A stretch of DNA of 64,000 nt from Lachnospiraceae bacterium (GTDB lineage Bacteria > Bacillota > Clostridia > Lachnospirales > Lachnospiraceae), in assembly GCA_017622875.1 (NCBI GenBank), contig JAGAQG010000026.1, positions 1 through 64,000 of the forward strand, given 5' to 3'. Each line of letters begins with the position of its first letter. Within the stretch, counting starts at the first letter, position 1. The position numbers were made by a program, and so were the translations under genes. A model generated the notes under the pieces. The model searched no databases and was not told where the DNA came from. It saw only the letters and a program-made list of their open reading frames with translations. Below are positions 25,254 through 38,686 of the stretch, piece after piece.

Positions 25254-26306
25254 ATGTTAATCATTCATACAGCGGACCTTCATCTGGGAGCAAGTCCCGA
25301 TGGATCGGAGCCATGGGCAAAAAATAGAAAAGAAGAACTTTGGGATAGCTTTGAAAAGCTGGTGGAAGCAGTAGAGATACAGCAGGCAGACCTGCTGCTC
25401 ATTGCGGGAGATGTATTTCACAGACCGCCGCTGCTTAGAGAACTTCGTGAGGTGAATGACCGTTTTGCATCATTTACGAAAACAAAGGTGGTATTGATGG
25501 CGGGAAATCACGATTATATCGGATCGAATTCCTTTTATAAAGGATTTCCATGGGCGGAAAATGTGCATTTTTTTGAAAGTGAAGAAATCAGTTCCGTAAA
25601 GTTCCCGGATTTAAATGTGGAAATTTATGGGTTCAGCTATTATAAGAAAGAAATCAGGGAAAAGCTGTATGATGACGTAAGGCCTGAGAATAACGGATAT
25701 TATCATATTCTGTTGGCTCATGGAGGAGATGAAAAGCACATTCCGTATACAAAAGAAAAACTTGCCAAAAGCGGATTTGATTATATTGCTTTTGGACATA
25801 TACATAAGCCAGGGATGATCCTGCCGGGCCGTGCGGTAATGGCAGGAAGCCTGGAACCGACCGACCATACCTGCTATGGAACTCATGGATTTGTAAGACT
25901 GGAAGTAAAGGATGGGAAAAATCAGGTTGCGCTGGTCCCTTTTGCCAAAAGGGAATACTGTACATTGAATCTGGAACTTACTACAGAAGATACCATGGGA
26001 AGTATTTGCAGAAGAGTTCGTGAAAAAGTCACAGAACTTGGCGAAGATAACATTTATGATATTATTATCACCGGAAAACGCCATGCTTCACTGGAAATCA
26101 TGGAAGAAAAGTTGAAAAGTACGGGAAACATCAGGGCGATTGTGGATAAGACAGAGAAATTCTATGATTATGTACAGCTTGGCATAGAATTTGAAGGCAG
26201 GCTGCTGCAAAAATACATTTCTTCTTTTGATGGCTGCGAAGAGACGCTGGAAAAGAAAGCTCTTGCTTATGGTACGGATGCGATTCTGGAGGCGCTAGGT
26301 GTATGA
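25254..26306 (+). CDS. Metallophosphoesterase, SbcD/YhaO-like DNA repair nuclease
   Basis: A 350-residue calcineurin-type phosphoesterase. Metal-binding motifs are in order: HTADLHLG, LLIAGDVFHRP, MAGNHDYIG, LLAHGGDE and FGHIHKPG. This is the Mre11/SbcD/YhaO arrangement. Partner proteins form a nuclease-ATPase complex acting on DNA ends. The next gene overlaps by 4 bp and encodes an SbcC/YhaN-like ATPase, which supports the pairing. The ATG lies directly after the T run of the asnS terminator and uses a Shine-Dalgarno located in that hairpin. Confidence 0.88.
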   Translation: MLIIHTADLHLGASPDGSEPWAKNRKEELWDSFEKLVEAVEIQQADLLLIAGDVFHRPPLLRELREVNDRFASFTKTKVVLMAGNHDYIGSNSFYKGFPWAENVHFFESEEISSVKFPDLNVEIYGFSYYKKEIREKLYDDVRPENNGYYHILLAHGGDEKHIPYTKEKLAKSGFDYIAFGHIHKPGMILPGRAVMAGSLEPTDHTCYGTHGFVRLEVKDGKNQVALVPFAKREYCTLNLELTTEDTMGSICRRVREKVTELGEDNIYDIIITGKRHASLEIMEEKLKSTGNIRAIVDKTEKFYDYVQLGIEFEGRLLQKYISSFDGCEETLEKKALAYGTDAILEALGV

Positions 26307-27685
26307 AAATCAAAGAACTGAATTTAAAGAATTTCGGTAAATTTTCCGGCGAAAACTTTCAGTTTGAGGATGGGATCAATGTCATCTATGGACCGAATGA
26401 GACGGGAAAGACGACCATCTATCACGCCATCGGAGCATTGCTCTTTGGCCTTGAAAAAGGAAGGGGACGTGCAGCAAAAAATGATACTTACAGCACTTAT
26501 CAGCCATGGGAAAATAAAACATGGTATGAGGGTAGTTTAAAGTTTGAGACTGGCGGAAAGATTTTTTCTTTGGAAAGAAATTTTTACCATAATGAAAAAT
26601 CAGCTCGTCTGATCTGTGAAACGGACGGAGAAGAGCTGTCGGTGGAACAGGGCGATTTGGAAATGCTCTTAGGGGATATGAATGCTGAGCTTTTCTTTAA
26701 TACTGCGGCGGTGGGACAGTTGAAAATGAAACCGCAGGAGATTATTTACAGCTATCTGAAAAATTATATCGCCAGTGTACAAGAAGCGGGAAGCCATGCT
26801 ACGGATGTAGTAAAGGCGCTGAACATTCTGGAGAATAGGAAAAAAACGTTGGAACAGCAGAAAAAGAAGCGGGCGGCAGAAGTTATGGCAGAGATTGCAA
26901 AAATTGATGCCAGACTGGAGCTGACAGAAAAGGAAATTGTTACATGTCAGGCACAGCTGAAGGATGTGACAGACAAGAAAGTAAAAGCTGATGCGGAGGT
27001 GGAAAAAGAAGAGATTCGAGGACTCTTTGCGAGAATCATGGAATGGTTCCGGCGATTGCTTTTTGGCAGACGCATAAGGGAAGAGAAGCAGCGCAAACGC
27101 GAAGAGTTATTAAAAATAGAAGAAAAGATCAGTTTTCTGCGGGAGCTTCTCGGTGAAAAAGAGAGCCAGCAGGAAGAACTTCTTTTAGAAAAAGATTCTT
27201 TTTATGAAAAATTGCATGAACAGTCAAAAGATGAAGAGATAAAAGCCATTGAACTGGCTATGGACAGAATCCGTCAACTGTCAATGCTTCGAAAAGAAGA
27301 AGTGATGGAACAGCTGCTTATGAAATCTTCCGAAGCATTAAAGAAGATGACGAAAGGAAAATATGAGAAGCTTTTGTTGAATGAAAACGAAGAACCATCT
27401 GTCTGGGATGGAAATAGAAGCGTAAAACTGTTTCAACTCAGTACCGGCTGTCAGGATCAGGTGTATCTGGCGCTTCGCATTGGTCTTCAGGATTTGTTTC
27501 TGGGGGACGACGGGCTGCCACTCATGTTTGATGATGCTTTTGTATATTTTGACGATAAACGATTAGAGAGATTGCTGTTATATCTTTCAGAAGGAGACCG
27601 ACAGGTGTTTTTGTTTTCCTGCCATAAAAGAGAACTTCGCATTCTGGAAAGATATCAGATTCCTTACGGAAAAATTTTACTTTGA
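26303..27685 (+). CDS. AAA family ATPase, short SbcC/YhaN-like
   Basis: A 460-residue split-ABC ATPase. The N-lobe has KIKELNLKNFGKFSGENFQF and Walker A YGPNETGKTTIYHAI. A coiled coil spans roughly 165-330. The C-lobe has the signature LSTGCQDQVYLALRIGLQ and Walker B LPLMFDDAFVYFDD, followed by a D-loop. It lies in an ATGA-type 4-bp overlap with the phosphoesterase gene. YhaN and SbcC relatives are usually 700-1000 residues; the coil here is much shorter and has the hydrophobic basic patch RIMEWFRRLLFGRR, perhaps a relic of the membrane hairpin seen in some relatives. DNA-end processing is inferred. Confidence 0.85.
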   Translation: MKIKELNLKNFGKFSGENFQFEDGINVIYGPNETGKTTIYHAIGALLFGLEKGRGRAAKNDTYSTYQPWENKTWYEGSLKFETGGKIFSLERNFYHNEKSARLICETDGEELSVEQGDLEMLLGDMNAELFFNTAAVGQLKMKPQEIIYSYLKNYIASVQEAGSHATDVVKALNILENRKKTLEQQKKKRAAEVMAEIAKIDARLELTEKEIVTCQAQLKDVTDKKVKADAEVEKEEIRGLFARIMEWFRRLLFGRRIREEKQRKREELLKIEEKISFLRELLGEKESQQEELLLEKDSFYEKLHEQSKDEEIKAIELAMDRIRQLSMLRKEEVMEQLLMKSSEALKKMTKGKYEKLLLNENEEPSVWDGNRSVKLFQLSTGCQDQVYLALRIGLQDLFLGDDGLPLMFDDAFVYFDDKRLERLLLYLSEGDRQVFLFSCHKRELRILERYQIPYGKILL

Positions 27686-31208: not shown

Positions 31209-32075
31209 ATGAGTAAAATTGCGATTGTTACAGACAGTAACAGCGGTTATACACAAAGTGAAGCCGATGCAGCAGGTATCTATTTGATACCAATGCCATT
31301 TTATATCGACGGAAAAGAATATTTTGAGGGTGTAAATCTTACAAGAGAAGATTTTTTTGAAGCTTTGAACAAGGATGCGGATGTGAGTACTTCCCAGCCA
31401 TCTCCGGGAAGCATCATGAATCTGTGGGACAAGATTTTAGAAAGCTACGATGAGCTTCTTTATTTTCCGATGTCCAGCGGATTATCAGGAACCTGTCAGA
31501 CAGCTGCGATGCTTGCGCAGGAGTATGATGGACGGGTTCATGTCATTGATAATCAGAGAATTTCAGTGCCATTGAAACGTTCCATGCATGATGCCATGAA
31601 AATGATTGAGCTTGGGAAGGATACAAAAGAAATTCTGGAATATCTGGAAAGAACAAAAATGGATTCCAGTATTTATATCACAGTTGCGACTTTGAAACAT
31701 TTGAAAAAGGGCGGAAGAGTCACTCCGGCCGCTGCGGCGCTTGGCACTTTATTGAAGATTAAACCAGTGCTTCAGATTCATGGAAAAAAACTGGATTCTT
31801 ACGCAAAAGCAAGAACTATGAACCAGGCAAAACATATCATGATCGAAGCTTTGAAAAAAGACATTGATGAAATGTTTGATGGCAACAGCGAAGAAGTACA
31901 TTTTGATATTGCATACACCTGTACTTATGAAGCGGCTCTCGAAATGAAAGCGCTTTTAGAGGAGACATTCCCGAATTACGATGAAATTATCATGGATCCG
32001 TTATCTTTAAGCATTTCCTGCCATGTAGGGGAAGGCGCTTTAGGAATTGCATGTACAAAAAAACTGGATGTGTAG
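31209..32075 (+). CDS. DegV family fatty-acid-binding protein
   Basis: A 288-residue DegV protein. The fatty-acid head-group motifs are VTDSNSGYT at the N-terminus, STSQPSPG near residue 60, SSGLSGT near 90 and the central KHLKKGGRVTPAAAALG. DegV proteins (FakB in staphylococci) bind fatty acids and hand them to the kinase FakA. The SMC-complex gene starts 6 bp after its stop, so the two are probably one transcript, although no functional link is known. FakA is not in the window. The promoter at 31097 drives it. Confidence 0.9.
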   Translation: MSKIAIVTDSNSGYTQSEADAAGIYLIPMPFYIDGKEYFEGVNLTREDFFEALNKDADVSTSQPSPGSIMNLWDKILESYDELLYFPMSSGLSGTCQTAAMLAQEYDGRVHVIDNQRISVPLKRSMHDAMKMIELGKDTKEILEYLERTKMDSSIYITVATLKHLKKGGRVTPAAAALGTLLKIKPVLQIHGKKLDSYAKARTMNQAKHIMIEALKKDIDEMFDGNSEEVHFDIAYTCTYEAALEMKALLEETFPNYDEIIMDPLSLSISCHVGEGALGIACTKKLDV

Positions 32076-32081
32076 GTATTT

Positions 32082-33614
32082 ATGACAAACCAGACAACTA
32101 TGCTTCGTGAAATTATAGAGGAGCATTCTGACAGAATTAAAAATATGAAAAAATACTACCCATATTTCAGACTGGCTGAAACGTCCCTGGCACAGTACAG
32201 GGACGGACAGTTCGCCTGCTTGGATATGGGTTATATTACGTTGGCAGTCATTCGATTTTTCATTGAAGAGAATAATTTCAAGGAAAAGGACGTGACTTAT
32301 CAGGAATACTATGCCTTTTTAAAAGAGCTTTTAAAAAGGGATTTTGATCTGGAACTGGAAAGAGAGGAAGAGCAGGATCTGATTGCTTTTCTTTTTGATA
32401 AATTGAAAAATGAAGGGAAACCTTTTAGTTTTGACTACTACGACCCGACGGACCATAAACGTAAGACCATGCGCAGCCGTTTTATGGACAGCAAGATCGA
32501 GGACGGGGTAGTCTATTATTATATTACTTCTGATGCCATTGAATTTTATCTGGATACCAAGGAAATTAAGGACGAAAGCACCATCAATGTGGAGCAGCTT
32601 CTGCTTGAAAAGCTGATCAGCACCCAGAATTTCCGTGGCGGCACAGAGGTGGCAAAGCGCATCAACAATGAAGTGGGACGTCTGATGCGTCAGAAAAACG
32701 AAGTGCTTGGAATCTTAAGCTATGACGTATTTGCAGGTGTGGAAGCTTTTGAAAAATTCATGGGAAGCACCATGCGCTGGTTTAAGGAAGAACAGAAGCT
32801 TTTTGTAAGAAACAGTGACCTGATTCATAAAGCGCTTGAGCGTGCAGAAAGCGATGGCGCACAAGGAGACTATCAGAGCCGTTATTATCAGGCGATTGAT
32901 GAAATTTATCAGCTGGAACTGGAATTGAAAAAAGCGATTGCAAGACACAGTGAGCTTTTGGGGGCATGTACGGTTCTGCAAAAGAAGGTGGGAGAACTGG
33001 TGGCAAAGTCAAAATTTGCAGCCCTGAAGCGTTCCCTGGATTTTAAACGTATGGGACAGCGTCTGATGGAGCGTGACCGCGCAGATTTGCTGGAAGCGCT
33101 GGTCATGCCGTTATTTGATGTTCATCCAGGCAAGACCTTAACCTTGGGACGATTGGAAGATTTACTGATGGTAAGTCCGGAAAAAACGGAAAACGCAGAA
33201 GCGGTGTCTGAAGGGGAAGAACAGATCTATATTTATGAGGATGAGATCGAAGATGCGAGAATTCAGAAAAATTATATTCTGCTCTTTGAGAACCTTTTGC
33301 AGACATTGGAACGTAAGGAATCCTTTACATTGAAAGAATGGCAGGAACAGTTACTGTTTCAGCTGGGGGAACAGGTGGTCCGCAATGCGGATTATTATTC
33401 ATTTTTAGTACATTTGGCACAGAAAAAAGAGTACAATGTGCGAAAAATGATAGAAAAACCGGATACATTTTTAGAAGAGGCTGTGAAAGTCTTTTTAGAA
33501 GAACATAAAGAATACGAAGAGGTGGACATGACACTGACCATGCTGCCGGAGGAAGAACTGCTTCTGGGAGAAAAGATGTCTGTCACAAATTTACTGATAG
33601 AGAGGGGAAATTAA
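32082..33614 (+). CDS. JetA/MksF-like kleisin subunit of a Wadjet-type SMC complex
   Basis: A 510-residue protein. The N-terminus (about 20-110) is helical and winged-helix-like (GQFACLDMGYITLAVIRFF), the middle has a helical bundle with VAKRINNEVGRLMRQKNEVLGILSYDVF, and the C-terminus is acidic, with a second winged-helix-like region. This layout, with the next two genes, matches the kleisin of MukF/MksF/JetA systems (DUF5716 group). The call rests on size (510, then 230, then 1458), gene order and close coupling rather than on a diagnostic motif. ATG 32082 has only a weak Shine-Dalgarno (TGTAGG), suggesting coupling with degV. Confidence 0.7.
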   Translation: MTNQTTMLREIIEEHSDRIKNMKKYYPYFRLAETSLAQYRDGQFACLDMGYITLAVIRFFIEENNFKEKDVTYQEYYAFLKELLKRDFDLELEREEEQDLIAFLFDKLKNEGKPFSFDYYDPTDHKRKTMRSRFMDSKIEDGVVYYYITSDAIEFYLDTKEIKDESTINVEQLLLEKLISTQNFRGGTEVAKRINNEVGRLMRQKNEVLGILSYDVFAGVEAFEKFMGSTMRWFKEEQKLFVRNSDLIHKALERAESDGAQGDYQSRYYQAIDEIYQLELELKKAIARHSELLGACTVLQKKVGELVAKSKFAALKRSLDFKRMGQRLMERDRADLLEALVMPLFDVHPGKTLTLGRLEDLLMVSPEKTENAEAVSEGEEQIYIYEDEIEDARIQKNYILLFENLLQTLERKESFTLKEWQEQLLFQLGEQVVRNADYYSFLVHLAQKKEYNVRKMIEKPDTFLEEAVKVFLEEHKEYEEVDMTLTMLPEEELLLGEKMSVTNLLIERGN

Positions 33615-33617
33615 ACG

Positions 33618-34310
33618 GTGGAAAACAGAAATTTAGAAAAAGCATTGGAACTGATATCAGATCTGATCCAGGGAGAAGAAAATCCGGTGCTCTATGAAGA
33701 ATATATTTCTAATTCGGAAGTTTACCGCCTGACCTCTATGATTGCAAAGAAGTTAGGACTTAGCATTTATGAATATCAGAATCATTTATATATGACAAGC
33801 GGAGAGCACAATAGAGTGTTTGGATTTACAAATGAGGAATTAAAGAAGGCTATTGGCGTGCGTTTGAACCGCGAACTGTATCTTTGCTATTACATTATTT
33901 ACACGATCATGATGCAGTTTTATCAGGATTCTGCAACCTACAGCTATATTGAATATGTCAAGATTGATGATGTGATTCGCGCGGTGGATCAGGGATTGGC
34001 AGCAGTGATTTCGCAGATTGAAGTGCTGGTACTTAGTGAAATTGAGGAAAACTCCTTTAGAACATTGGCACTTATGTGGGAAGATCTGCCGATGATTACG
34101 ACGGAAGAATCTACCGTTCGAAGAGCGGCCAGAAACTCTAAGATCGGTTATGTGAAAATGGTAGTAAATTTCATGGTAAATCAGAGACTTCTCCTGGAGG
34201 CGGAAGAGAGATATTATCCGACGGAGCGTTTCCGTGCACTCATCGAAAATTACTACACGGAGCATCAGGGAAGACTCTATGAATTATTGAACGGAAAGGA
34301 AGAAAGCTAA
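33618..34310 (+). CDS. JetB/MksE-like subunit (DUF6063-type)
   Basis: A 230-residue, mostly helical protein with winged-helix character. Examples are SNSEVYRLTSMIAKKLGLSIYEY near residues 30-55 and the C-terminal NFMVNQRLLLEAEERYYPTERFRAL. In MukBEF, MksBEF and JetABC complexes, the E/B subunit bridges the kleisin and the SMC heads. The start is GTG 33618, with GAGGGG upstream. It begins 3 bp after the kleisin stop, and its TAA overlaps the ATG of the SMC gene (TAATG). The family name is inferred mainly from context and length. Confidence 0.7.
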   Translation: MENRNLEKALELISDLIQGEENPVLYEEYISNSEVYRLTSMIAKKLGLSIYEYQNHLYMTSGEHNRVFGFTNEELKKAIGVRLNRELYLCYYIIYTIMMQFYQDSATYSYIEYVKIDDVIRAVDQGLAAVISQIEVLVLSEIEENSFRTLALMWEDLPMITTEESTVRRAARNSKIGYVKMVVNFMVNQRLLLEAEERYYPTERFRALIENYYTEHQGRLYELLNGKEES

Positions 34311-37300
34311 TGCCGCATATTAACAGAATTCGTGTGAACAATGTAAAATACAATTTCGGCACTCAGTATTATGATGATTTTGTCATGCGCTTTTCCGGAA
34401 AAAATACGATTTACGACCTGGCAAACGGCGGCGGAAAAAGTGTGCTCATGCTGTTGCTTTTACAGAACCTGATTCCAAATTGTACGTTGGATGAAAAACA
34501 GCCGATTGAGAAATTATTCCGTTCCGGAAATGGAAATACGACCATTCATTCCATGATTGAGTGGAAGTTAAATCCATGCCATGTAAAGAACGGTTTTCAG
34601 TACATGACCACTGGCTTTTGTGCAAGAAAGGCTAGAGGAAGTGCAGGAGAAGAAGGGGAAGTTTCCGCAGACAGAGCAGCCATCGACTATTTTAACTATT
34701 GTATTTTTTATCGTCAGTTTAATGACAATGATTTGAAAAATCTGCCGTTATCAAACGGAAAGGAACGCATTACTTACCTTGGACTCCGTTCCTATTTGCA
34801 GGAATTAGAGAAGAAGGATTTTCATGTAGAAGTAAAAATCTTTGACCGCAAGGGAGATTATCAGAGATTTATCAGTCAGTACGGACTGTTTGAAAGTGAA
34901 TGGGAAATCATTCGCGGGATCAACAAAACAGAAGGCCACGTGCGTACCTATTTTGAGACAAACTACCGAACTACGCGAAAAGTTGTAGAAGATTTATTGA
35001 TCGAAGAGATCATTGAGAAGTCATTTTATCATAAAACGGGGACTGACCGTGAATCCGGTGAAATGGCAAATACTTTGCTGGACTTAAAAGACCAGCTTGT
35101 TTTGCTGTCCCAGAAAAAGAATGAAATTCATTATTATGACCGTCAGATTGAGCTTTTATCGGAATTCGCATCCCGTGTAGGAAGCCTTCAGGGAATGTAT
35201 TTTAAAAAGCAGGGACTGGAAGATCAGCTTGTAAAGACCTACAATACGACTTTAAAACGACGTCTTCAGAAGGAACATGCTCATGAGGCGCTGACTGAAA
35301 AGGCAGAAACTCTGGCAAAGCAGAAGATGGAAGTATCCCGTCAGATTGATATTGCAGGCATTCAGAAAAAGGAACAGCAGCTGAAAAAACTGGAAGCAGA
35401 AGAAAAGGAGAAGCGAAAAGATATCGAAGAAGTTGCCGGCATCAGTGTAAAGAAGCGTGCCGGGCTGGAAGAACGTGAATGTGACAATTACTACTTAAAT
35501 TATATTGAATACGAAAAAGAATATCTTGCAGCGAAAAAAGCAGTGGAAGCAATTCTTAGCGGCAGTGAAACACTGGAAGAAGATTTATTTGCCATGGCGA
35601 ATGAATGGAAATCTTATGTGGAACAGGACCAGAAAGAGCTGGCAAACCTGATTACAGAGCTTCAGGAAGGGACAGCAGCTCTTGAAAAGGAACTGGCAGA
35701 GCTGGAAACTGAGGAAAGAAAACAGGCAATCAAAGCCGAAGTCCTGGAAAACAGTATCAAAAAGATTGAGGAAGAAAAACAGAAGTTAAATGATCAGATT
35801 CATAACCTTTCCCGTCAGGAAAGCGTTCTGTTCTTCTCTGATATGAAGGGGCAGTGTGAAAAGGCGGAAAAAGAATATGCAGCCCTGGAAAAACAGAAAC
35901 GTCAGACAGCCCTGCGCCTAGAGCAGTGTGCAAAAGAACTCTATGGAGCAGAACTGCAGAACCGTAACCTTCAGAAGGAAGAACGAAGAATCACTTCAGA
36001 GCTAGAGTCCTTAAATAAAGAGCTTGGAAAGCAAAGCAAGCTGACAGAGCGGATGGATCAGCTCATTGGAATCTATGGAGGCACCTACGAATCCGTAGAA
36101 AATATTTTATTCCAGCAGCAAAAAGAGCTGGTGCTGGCCCATCAGAAAAATATGGAAGAGAAAAAGAGTCTGCAGGCCAAATTAGCAGCGCTGGCAGATG
36201 GGATTTCTGTACCGTTTCCGGGGGAAGTCTCTGCATTTTTAGAGGATGTGGCAAGATACTACGATGAGCGAGCTGTTTCCGGCTATGACTATTTAAGAGA
36301 AAAGTCCGGGGATGTGCGTGAGAGCTTACTGGAACGTTATCCAATGCTTCCGTATGCAGTAGTAACAGATGCAGATTTAGAGACAATTGCATCTGACCGT
36401 AAATTAAGAGAAAAAGATTTTGGCGATGTTTTGATCCCGATTGTTTCTCTGAAAGCCTTAGAGCGTGAAAAAGAGCTGACAGAGGAAGGAACGATGATCT
36501 TCATAGGCAGAACTCTGGATAAAACCAAGATCAAAGAACGTCTTGCACAATTGGAAACTGTCTTTGCAAAAGAATATGAGAAAGAGCGTGTTTTAAAGCA
36601 GGATTACAATTTTGTTCAGATGTTTTTGCAGCAGCGCACAGACTACGAACCAAAGCAGGCATCTTATGATACGTTAAAGGCACAGTGGAAACAGCTTCAG
36701 ATGGAACGGGAAGAGAATTCGTTAAAAATGCGTACTCTTACAGAACAGGAAGAATCCCTTCGTACCGAGCTTACAGAATCAGAACAGTCCTTAAAAGATG
36801 CAAAAGCTCATTTGGAAAACATGCAGATGATCTACGAGTTGGAGTGCCGGAGAAATTCGCTGGAAGAAGAAAGCACCTTTGCCCGCAGAAAACTGAATGA
36901 GACAAAAGCAGCTTTGGAAAATGCTCATAGAGCTTCTCTGAATGTGACAGAAAGCTTAGAGGGAGCAGAACATAGTCTTGATACAAAACGTCAGGAATTA
37001 AAACGTGTGCTGGAAAGCTGGGATATTTTTAAGACCTATGTCACTGACCAGGCCTATCCTGCCACCGGACTGGACAGAAAAGAATTAGAAACTGCATTTT
37101 TAGGAAAGAAAACTGCTTATGAGCAGAAAAATACAGATATTCTGGATAAGCAGAAGCTGGCAGGTTCCTTTGAAAAGGCAATGGAACAGCAAAAAGAGCA
37201 GTTGCAGCTTCTTGGACATTCTCTGGAAGAAATGGCTGAAAAAGAAAGAGCGACCGGCTGTGTCCGAACGGACATGGAAAAAATGCTGGTACTGAAAAAA

Positions 37301-38686
37301 GAAGTCTTCGAAATTCAGAACAGACAGATTGTTCTGGAAAATGAAAAGAAGGCTTTGGAAGTGAGTCTTCATAAGACCATGGGAAGCATTCAGCATGCAA
37401 AACAGATGGCGGAAGAAACTTATGGACCGCTGGAAGAACTGGATATTCCGGAAGGACAGCTGGAACTGTTCGCGGCACGCCAGAAAGAACAGTTAAAGGT
37501 ACTGGAAGCGGAAAGCAAAGCGGATGAAAAACAGATGCGTGAGCTGGAAGAACAGTGCTATGCATTGAAGGCCATGGCCCAGGATATGGAGCGTATGATG
37601 AAGAGTGCCGGTATTACACCGGAGAATATTACAGAGTGTCTGGAGACGGGAATGTCGTTAAAAGAGCAGTATGAAGATCTTCGCCAGGCATACGAAAAGA
37701 TTGTCAAAGAAGAATCCAAGAGACTGGATGAGGTGGAAAAAGAAAAACAGCTCTTAACTGCAACTCTGGAAAAAATGGGGGCTTATGAGCTGTCAGAAGA
37801 AATTAAGAAGAATCTGACTGCCCCTGAAAATGAGACACAGATCAAAGAACAGATGGATTCCCTAAAATCTGTGACAGAATGTCTGGAACTTGAAAAGAAC
37901 CGCATTGGCAAGGATATGGATTCTCTTCAGGAATTAAAGGATCAGTTCGAGACACAGTGCTTACAGAACTGCTTAAATATCAAGGAAGAACTGGACCGTT
38001 TGCAGAAACTTTCCAAAATCTCTATGGATGGACAGATGATCTCTATGATCACTTTGCAGATTCCATATATTAAAGAAGAACTGTATGGCAATGCGATGTC
38101 AGAATACATTGACAGCATTATCCGTCAGGTGGAAAATTTTGAGACGCAGGCAGAGAGACTTGGCTTCATTCGAAATCAATTGGCATTTAAACGCCTGTTT
38201 TCTGTCATTGTAACGAATATGGATACGATACGTCTGACGCTCTATAAACGTGAAAGAATGAAAGAGCAGAGCCGCTATTTGAAATACGAGGAAGCGGTGG
38301 GAAGTACAGGGCAGTCACAGGGAATTTATATTCAGTTCCTGGTTGCAATCATCAATTATATTTCCAGCATCAATTCCGGAAATGCAGATCCTCTGGAATT
38401 AAAGAAAGTTATTTTCATTGATAACCCGTTTGGTGCTGCGAAAGACGTTTATATCTGGGAACCGATCTTTAAACTGTTAAAATCTAACAATGTACAGCTG
38501 ATCGTTCCTGCCCGCGGTGCCACACCTGCCATTACCGGTCATTTTGAGGTGAACTATATCCTTGGACAGAAGCTGATCGATGGCAGACAGCAGACGGTTG
38601 TGGTAGATTACCGCAGTCAGACAGAAGAAAAGGAACTGGAATATTCTGCTTTGGAATACGAACAGGAGACCTTCAATTTCTTATAA
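34310..38686 (+). CDS. JetC/MksB-like SMC ATPase
   Basis: A 1458-residue SMC-type ATPase. The N-terminal head has HINRIRVNNVKYNFGTQYY and Walker A ANGGGKSVLMLLLLQN. Long coiled coils (about 270-600 and 745-1300) flank a hinge-like globular region at about 610-745. The C-terminal head carries a signature-like GSTGQSQGIYIQFLVAIINY near residue 1330 and Walker B KKVIFIDNPFGAAKD near 1366-1380. The catalytic Glu expected after Asp1371 is Asn1372. Longer than most JetC proteins (about 1100). The complex probably loads on DNA and may limit plasmids or shape the chromosome. The Wadjet nuclease gene jetD is absent. Confidence 0.75.
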   Translation: MPHINRIRVNNVKYNFGTQYYDDFVMRFSGKNTIYDLANGGGKSVLMLLLLQNLIPNCTLDEKQPIEKLFRSGNGNTTIHSMIEWKLNPCHVKNGFQYMTTGFCARKARGSAGEEGEVSADRAAIDYFNYCIFYRQFNDNDLKNLPLSNGKERITYLGLRSYLQELEKKDFHVEVKIFDRKGDYQRFISQYGLFESEWEIIRGINKTEGHVRTYFETNYRTTRKVVEDLLIEEIIEKSFYHKTGTDRESGEMANTLLDLKDQLVLLSQKKNEIHYYDRQIELLSEFASRVGSLQGMYFKKQGLEDQLVKTYNTTLKRRLQKEHAHEALTEKAETLAKQKMEVSRQIDIAGIQKKEQQLKKLEAEEKEKRKDIEEVAGISVKKRAGLEERECDNYYLNYIEYEKEYLAAKKAVEAILSGSETLEEDLFAMANEWKSYVEQDQKELANLITELQEGTAALEKELAELETEERKQAIKAEVLENSIKKIEEEKQKLNDQIHNLSRQESVLFFSDMKGQCEKAEKEYAALEKQKRQTALRLEQCAKELYGAELQNRNLQKEERRITSELESLNKELGKQSKLTERMDQLIGIYGGTYESVENILFQQQKELVLAHQKNMEEKKSLQAKLAALADGISVPFPGEVSAFLEDVARYYDERAVSGYDYLREKSGDVRESLLERYPMLPYAVVTDADLETIASDRKLREKDFGDVLIPIVSLKALEREKELTEEGTMIFIGRTLDKTKIKERLAQLETVFAKEYEKERVLKQDYNFVQMFLQQRTDYEPKQASYDTLKAQWKQLQMEREENSLKMRTLTEQEESLRTELTESEQSLKDAKAHLENMQMIYELECRRNSLEEESTFARRKLNETKAALENAHRASLNVTESLEGAEHSLDTKRQELKRVLESWDIFKTYVTDQAYPATGLDRKELETAFLGKKTAYEQKNTDILDKQKLAGSFEKAMEQQKEQLQLLGHSLEEMAEKERATGCVRTDMEKMLVLKKEVFEIQNRQIVLENEKKALEVSLHKTMGSIQHAKQMAEETYGPLEELDIPEGQLELFAARQKEQLKVLEAESKADEKQMRELEEQCYALKAMAQDMERMMKSAGITPENITECLETGMSLKEQYEDLRQAYEKIVKEESKRLDEVEKEKQLLTATLEKMGAYELSEEIKKNLTAPENETQIKEQMDSLKSVTECLELEKNRIGKDMDSLQELKDQFETQCLQNCLNIKEELDRLQKLSKISMDGQMISMITLQIPYIKEELYGNAMSEYIDSIIRQVENFETQAERLGFIRNQLAFKRLFSVIVTNMDTIRLTLYKRERMKEQSRYLKYEEAVGSTGQSQGIYIQFLVAIINYISSINSGNADPLELKKVIFIDNPFGAAKDVYIWEPIFKLLKSNNVQLIVPARGATPAITGHFEVNYILGQKLIDGRQQTVVVDYRSQTEEKELEYSALEYEQETFNFL

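Follow-up and report, generated by a model that had tools for sequence, protein, structure and literature searches.

What becomes of a Wadjet system that no longer carries its nuclease? In Wadjet, JetABC acts as the sensor and JetD as the cutter (PMC10586767). The question is raised by a jetABC operon in a stretch of 64,000 nucleotides (the window; positions 1 to 64,000 of contig JAGAQG010000026.1, assembly GCA_017622875.1) from a bacterium of the family Lachnospiraceae. The original prediction, made from the sequence alone, described a degV-coupled set of kleisin, bridging subunit and SMC ATPase resembling JetABC or MksFEB, devoid of JetD and perhaps domesticated. The finding is real and has stronger grounds than those first offered, namely vertical descent after loss of the nuclease, and not the degV gene or the unusual Walker B motif. 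On the balance of the comparative evidence, the operon probably encodes a chromosomal SMC complex, the cell's second, which descends from Wadjet type III and no longer cuts plasmids. An open reading frame (ORF) check of the window confirmed the tightly packed order degV-jetA-jetB-jetC, with all coordinates and lengths exact:

32082..33614, + strand, jetA, predicted kleisin, 510 residues, PADLOC JetA3 at 684 bits
33618..34310, + strand, jetB, KITE-type bridging subunit, 230 residues, GTG start, DUF6063, PADLOC JetB3 at 318 bits
34310..38686, + strand, jetC, SMC ATPase, 1458 residues, PADLOC JetC3 (PDLC00581) at 1603 bits over its full length

The gap between degV and jetA is 6 bp and that between jetA and jetB 3 bp, jetB and jetC overlap by 1 base, and 122 bp separate jetC from the following gene, which encodes a TPR-AAA+ protein. 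All three Jet proteins gave near full-length matches to the PADLOC models of Wadjet type III, placing the identity of the locus far beyond chance and bearing out the predicted JetABC-like composition. In Pfam, JetB matched DUF6063 only, and JetA and JetC gave nothing above the cut-off. Structure comparison of the predicted JetB fold returned solved Wadjet, Nse and MukE chains as the best matches, and the model has the tandem winged helices of a KITE protein. JetC carries the Walker A, signature and Walker B motifs of an SMC ATPase together with a long coiled coil. Profiles of JetA and JetB searched against PDB yielded chance-level matches only, and the JetC profile hit the coiled coil alone, unspecifically (SMC proteins and myosins alike). 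A promoter scan of the locus was uninformative, promoter-like sites being fewer than in shuffled sequences.

The absence of JetD extends well beyond the window. Among 200 genomes drawn evenly from the Lachnospiraceae (the window's genome is designated G000), the JetA3 model of the window's clade matched 33, of which 31 strongly. In agreement with the original prediction, no JetD was found at the locus, elsewhere in the window or in the surroundings of any of these 31 loci. At least 3.7 kb is available upstream of jetA, where JetD lies in relatives, at 29 loci, and fewer than 200 bases at the other two. Remnants of JetD were sought in 34 sources (the whole window and 33 related loci) with a profile of 29 JetD proteins run against six-frame pieces of at least 25 residues (HMMER --max; best E 0.95) and with tblastn, which returned nothing at E ≤ 0.01. 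The two weak matches, in G157 and G179, lie outside the window's clade, and both have JetD3 directly before jetA. Possessing the JetA3/B3/C3 core and lacking JetD, the CAP + Toprim nuclease, the locus is not filed as a Wadjet system; annotation by JetA/B/C models alone would count such loci as anti-plasmid defence despite the missing cutter.

How jetABC has been transmitted was assessed by comparing trees of JetC and RpoB in 28 genomes that yielded both proteins (27 from the family plus G202, which belongs to another family of the order). The trees had 21 of 25 splits in common; when the labels were shuffled 500 times, the mean was 0.24 and the highest count 3. None of 2000 permutations reached the Mantel correlation (r 0.865). 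Seventeen JetC splits had support of at least 0.95, of which 11 coincided with supported RpoB splits and none conflicted (27 genomes). In the control, JetC of the JetD-bearing type III systems of the family shared only 2 of 11 splits with RpoB (14 genomes; r 0.37, with 137 of 2000 permutations as high) and its main clade of 11 genomes 2 of 8 (r 0.40; 86 of 2000), whereas three random JetD-less subsamples of 11 genomes shared 7 of 8 splits each. Three of the four supported splits of the JetD-bearing systems conflict with RpoB. In a 72-genome RpoB tree (29 carriers, 42 non-carriers chosen by hand and not at random, and G202 as the outgroup), the common ancestor of the carriers spans all 71 family genomes; Fitch parsimony counts 11 changes when G202 is scored as lacking jetABC. 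This span, together with the many losses, makes jetABC look ancestral to the family and often lost.

Purifying selection on jetABC is strong, with ratios of nonsynonymous to synonymous substitution rates (dN/dS) of 0.02-0.12 in 14 close pairs wherever computable; the pairs share some members, and several synonymous rates are near or beyond saturation. Smc and ScpA are kept in all 32 genomes tested (the 31 carriers and G202; Smc of G040 is in two pieces on two contigs), which would make jetABC a second SMC complex. No JetC relatives were found in 50,697 phage records and none was confirmed in viral contigs, and 72,556 plasmid records gave one weak match. The domesticated, chromosomal role originally suggested fits vertical inheritance, purifying selection and the preferred chromosomal site described below, and remains a role that we infer.

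The origin of the nuclease-less form can be traced in more distant relatives. A profile scan of GTDB returned 380 JetC relatives (a single-protein scan of genome contigs returned nothing), and the best 80 of these (the "titled" loci) were examined with their surroundings; at least 10 of the 80 share an identical JetC with one of the 31 family loci, so that the sets overlap. Named relatives include Frisingicoccus caecimuris and Diplocloster modestus (Lachnospiraceae) and Lactobacillus (Lachnospira) rogosae. JetD is present at one of the best 80 loci (1 of 62 when only loci with 4.5 kb or more upstream of jetC are counted), that of Clostridium vincentii (Clostridiaceae), and G202 has a jetABC of the same clade with JetD before jetA. 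In these two loci (L112, of G202, and L217, of C. vincentii), the JetD upstream of jetA is JetD3 (155 and 194 bits, respectively), with a JetD_C domain above the Pfam cut-off. Together with a JetD-less locus of Clostridium akagii, they make up a trio that is sister to the family clade (support 98.7/99 and 0.995). A JetD gene at the same locus in close relatives had been named as evidence that would overturn the prediction; within the family it occurs at none of the 31 loci. It is met only outside the family, among the Clostridiaceae of the sister lineage, which speaks for the loss of a JetD once present in the ancestor.

Some points weaken the case for such a loss. The separation of the family clade from its JetD-bearing sister is only moderately supported (86.1/80 and 0.876), and the family clade has a Shimodaira-Hasegawa-like approximate likelihood ratio test value of 86 in the tree with G202 as sole sister. 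In addition, of the loci just outside the family clade and its sister, L120 and L121 carry JetD and L114 and L115 (from another family) do not, and because the latter two also lack it, a loss in the family takes as many steps as a regain in the sister lineage. Regain is made less likely by the agreement of the two trees: L112 and L217 join L120/L121 in both the JetD tree (0.877) and the JetC tree (0.996), suggesting that JetD was inherited with JetC there. With the JetD tree favouring loss, JetD was probably lost from an ancestral type III system. JetD-less type III loci also occur in two further branches (L119 and L126; L123), and loss of JetD in type III seems recurrent. The loss of a JetB segment for JetD docking was sought in one alignment, and nothing clear emerged.

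Several of these outlying loci have features of their own. The JetD-less jetABC of C. akagii (L226) is nested with that of JetD-bearing C. vincentii, and may represent a second, recent loss or a JetD located elsewhere. L114 and L115, with no JetD found nearby, have the Walker A motif NGLGKT; in L115 the signature reads STGQSNG and Walker B LDSPF and a GH123 gene precedes jetA, while jetC of L114 is split over two frames. At the type III loci L119, L126 and L123, no JetD was found beside jetABC, and jetA is preceded by a pirin gene (L119) or a gene for a protein with a chemotaxis-receptor signalling domain (L123). In L068 (G176), ORFs of 2433, 381 and 79 residues lie between a type III jetD and jetA.

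The motifs of JetC were compared with those of JetD-bearing type III systems:

34424..34441, + strand, Walker A motif NGGGKS of JetC, residues 39-44
38300..38323, + strand, ABC signature GSTGQSQG of JetC, residues 1331-1338
38417..38431, + strand, Walker B motif IDNPF of JetC, with D1371 and Asn at the usual Glu position, in the context VIFIDNPF

Walker A is identical in all 111 aligned rows (JetC of more than 1300 residues), comprising 109 of the window's clade, the JetD-bearing sisters included, plus L061 and L062. The signature is identical in 109 of 109 aligned clade members, again including L112 and L217, and its position reads NSGGE in 12 of 14 JetD-bearing type III rows of the Lachnospiraceae. 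As the JetD-bearing sister L112 also has STGQSQG, the change of signature appears to have preceded the loss of JetD. IDNPF is nearly invariant among the aligned clade members. The original prediction correctly read Asn in place of the catalytic Glu, but its link to lost cutting fails: DNPF is present in every JetD-bearing type III JetC aligned, so that IDN is a type III trait and not a sign of lost function, and as a mark of lost activity it is ruled out.

The chromosomal setting of the operon was compared across the family, starting from its two immediate neighbours:

31209..32075, + strand, degV/FakB-like gene, 288 residues, DegV (TIGR00762) at 247 bits
38809..41292, + strand, TPR-AAA+ gene downstream of jetC, 827 residues, TTG start, with TPR, acidic linker and AAA+ domain

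Among the family loci, 11 of 29 have recR no more than 1.1 kb upstream of jetA; on the other side, the TPR-AAA+ gene follows jetC within 2.5 kb in 20 of the 28 with sequence there. Among the best 80 of 380 relatives, the corresponding counts are 24 of 62 and 34 of 57. Of 40 hand-picked genomes that lack this jetABC, 6 show an empty site in which the TPR-AAA+ gene comes directly after recR. Many loci adjoin the housekeeping genes dnaX-ybaB-recR (the names pfkA, dnaX, ybaB and recR are from NCBIfam), and other loci differ in their neighbours, several having a radical-SAM and a malic enzyme gene downstream. The window keeps the downstream side of the usual site and differs on the upstream side. 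The proposed coupling to degV could not be upheld, as no degV match was found in the surroundings of the 30 other family loci or of the best 80 of 380 relatives; with the upstream side altered, degV appears to be a chance neighbour, and it is ruled out as a functional partner. The TPR-AAA+ gene is present in 196 of the 200 family genomes, with or without jetABC, which marks it as a core gene and rules it out as a jet-specific fourth subunit. It is often found beside recR, and its product has a long acidic linker and weak similarity to CbbX/SpoVK. Farther out, glgB follows the TPR-AAA+ gene, and nrdD and a SpoVAC/SpoVAEB-family gene lie upstream. At 25254-27685 of the window, an SbcD-type nuclease-like ORF, recognised by eye, is followed by an SbcC/YhaN-like ATPase ORF with the signature STGCQDQ.

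Taken together, these observations can be accommodated by the following scheme. A type III Wadjet system would have lost JetD by the time of the common ancestor of the Lachnospiraceae and then been inherited vertically, with repeated losses, beside Smc-ScpAB. JetA, JetB and JetC would assemble into an SMC ring able to bind DNA and, with ATP, to extrude it. This motor, left behind after the loss of JetD, may act on the cell's own chromosome as a loop extruder driven by ATP. Its task could be folding, segregation, or help at replication and repair, for which MksBEF of Pseudomonas aeruginosa provides the precedent of a chromosomal SMC role (PMC7485682 and PMC10586767). That the three proteins form a complex, that they extrude loops and that they serve the chromosome and not defence are steps that we infer. 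JetABC resembles MksBEF in make-up and company, and its genes, in contrast to those of the JetD-bearing systems of the family, have evolved as chromosomal genes do; a chromosomal role therefore appears the most likely.

Other observations pull in the opposite direction. The signature and Walker B of JetC depart from those of canonical SMC proteins, so that ATP hydrolysis is not assured, and JetA remains a putative kleisin. The operon is present in only 31 of the 200 family genomes and is hence dispensable, and such patchiness is also typical of defence genes; Dollo parsimony requires 13 losses across the 71 family genomes. The preferred site is far from universal, with recR missing upstream in 18 of 29 loci and the TPR-AAA+ gene missing downstream in 8 of 28, and vertical inheritance can be compatible with a defence role. 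Finally, 11 of the 31 genomes with a JetD-less locus have a JetD domain elsewhere according to the JetD_C model, which at E 0.1 matched 12 of 32 genomes, one being the JetD-bearing G202, and is weak on type II JetD.

The alternative that best withstands the evidence, if a tentative one, is plasmid restriction without cutting, in which JetABC would sense small circular DNA by extruding it totally and then silence, compact or mis-segregate it. Descent from a plasmid-sensing complex and the patchy distribution suit this proposal, as does Smc5/6, which acts on extrachromosomal DNA without a Wadjet nuclease (PMC10586767). However, suppression of transformation in Bacillus subtilis required all four Wadjet subunits (PMC10586767), and both vertical inheritance, which the JetD-bearing systems of the family do not show, and the housekeeping neighbours dnaX-ybaB-recR in many genomes speak against it. 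We rank it second to a chromosomal role and consider it rather unlikely.

It is a good deal less probable that the nuclease is borrowed in trans, for example from a second Wadjet system. The window's own genome carries a type II system, JetA2-JetB2-JetC2-JetD2, on contig C29 (L064:3951-12070). The search for a detached JetD elsewhere in this genome, which the original prediction had called for, thus recovered a type II JetD2 and no type III JetD at E ≤ 0.001 in the 2.74-Mb assembly, which is 87.7% complete. Across the 200 genomes, type III JetD was matched at E < 1e-20 in 17, and among the 31 carriers a strong match (JetD3, PDLC00592) occurs only in G151 and G174, on other contigs, each heading a second, different jetABC. 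These separate systems and the 11 genomes with a JetD_C match elsewhere could supply a nuclease. On the other hand, 20 of the 31 carriers have no JetD_C match at E 0.1, though the model is weak on type II (that of G000 scored E 1.9e-4), and in the loci examined JetD pairs with JetABC of its own type.

Very doubtful is an ordinary type III Wadjet whose JetD has moved to another place in the genome or is absent from the assembly. The incompleteness of the G000 assembly would allow for it, and in five further carriers JetD3 gave weak matches away from the locus (E 1e-5 to 1e-3), perhaps to JetD of other types; yet JetD3 was not found in G000, the strong matches in G151 and G174 belong to different jetABC operons, and with 26 of the 31 genomes at least 90% complete the family-wide picture opposes it. 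A decaying Wadjet remnant without present function, to which the repeated losses and broken loci such as L058 (jetA in two frames) might point, is hardly credible, being largely refuted by the low dN/dS in 14 pairs and by Walker A and signature motifs invariant in 109 of 109 clade members.

If jetABC is indeed a chromosomal complex, its wider significance lies in how it arose. A descent of MukBEF and MksBEF from defence systems resembling Wadjet has been proposed (PMC10586767). That step lies far back in time and is difficult to examine; in the present case the form without a nuclease, a nuclease-bearing sister and the family's nuclease-bearing type III systems are all available, and some of the forms needed for a comparison occur in cultured bacteria. 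The JetD-bearing type III systems of the family, with a tree that does not follow the species, would then offer a natural before-and-after comparison. Whether this amounts to an origin of a chromosome-organising SMC complex from an anti-plasmid machine, separate from that of MukBEF and MksBEF, we regard as evenly poised: a type III Wadjet would have shed its nuclease close to the root of the Lachnospiraceae and ceased to move between genomes, turning into a second condensin that was passed on vertically and later disappeared from many lineages. Among the literature matches listed, which were seen in part, there was no recognisable paper on JetD-less type III JetABC in the Lachnospiraceae and none with the word DUF6063.

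Compared with Wadjet type III, the Lachnospiraceae form shares the core proteins, the order jetA-jetB-jetC and the DNPF Walker B motif. It differs in lacking the JetD that stands before jetA in JetD-bearing relatives, in reading GSTGQSQG where most JetD-bearing systems of the family read NSGGE, and in being vertically inherited, often at one chromosomal site. From Escherichia coli MukBEF it is set apart by the lack of detectable sequence similarity when profiles of JetA and JetB were searched against PDB and by its company, as MukBEF replaces Smc-ScpAB (PMC10586767) whereas the Lachnospiraceae JetABC coexists with it. The type II Wadjet of the same genome is likewise an SMC-based Jet operon, and JetC2 shares the Walker A region with JetC, with a weak hhalign match (E 0.001 over 49 columns, probability 20%); however, the type II system is complete with JetD2 and is built from other families (DUF2397, DUF2398, DUF2399). 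P. aeruginosa MksBEF belongs to another Wadjet lineage. Both it and, with JetA as the predicted kleisin, the Lachnospiraceae JetABC are SMC-KITE-kleisin sets without a nuclease that occur beside Smc-ScpAB, and function has been shown for MksBEF whereas that of JetABC is putative. In composition and company, the Lachnospiraceae JetABC is best read as the type III counterpart of MksBEF.

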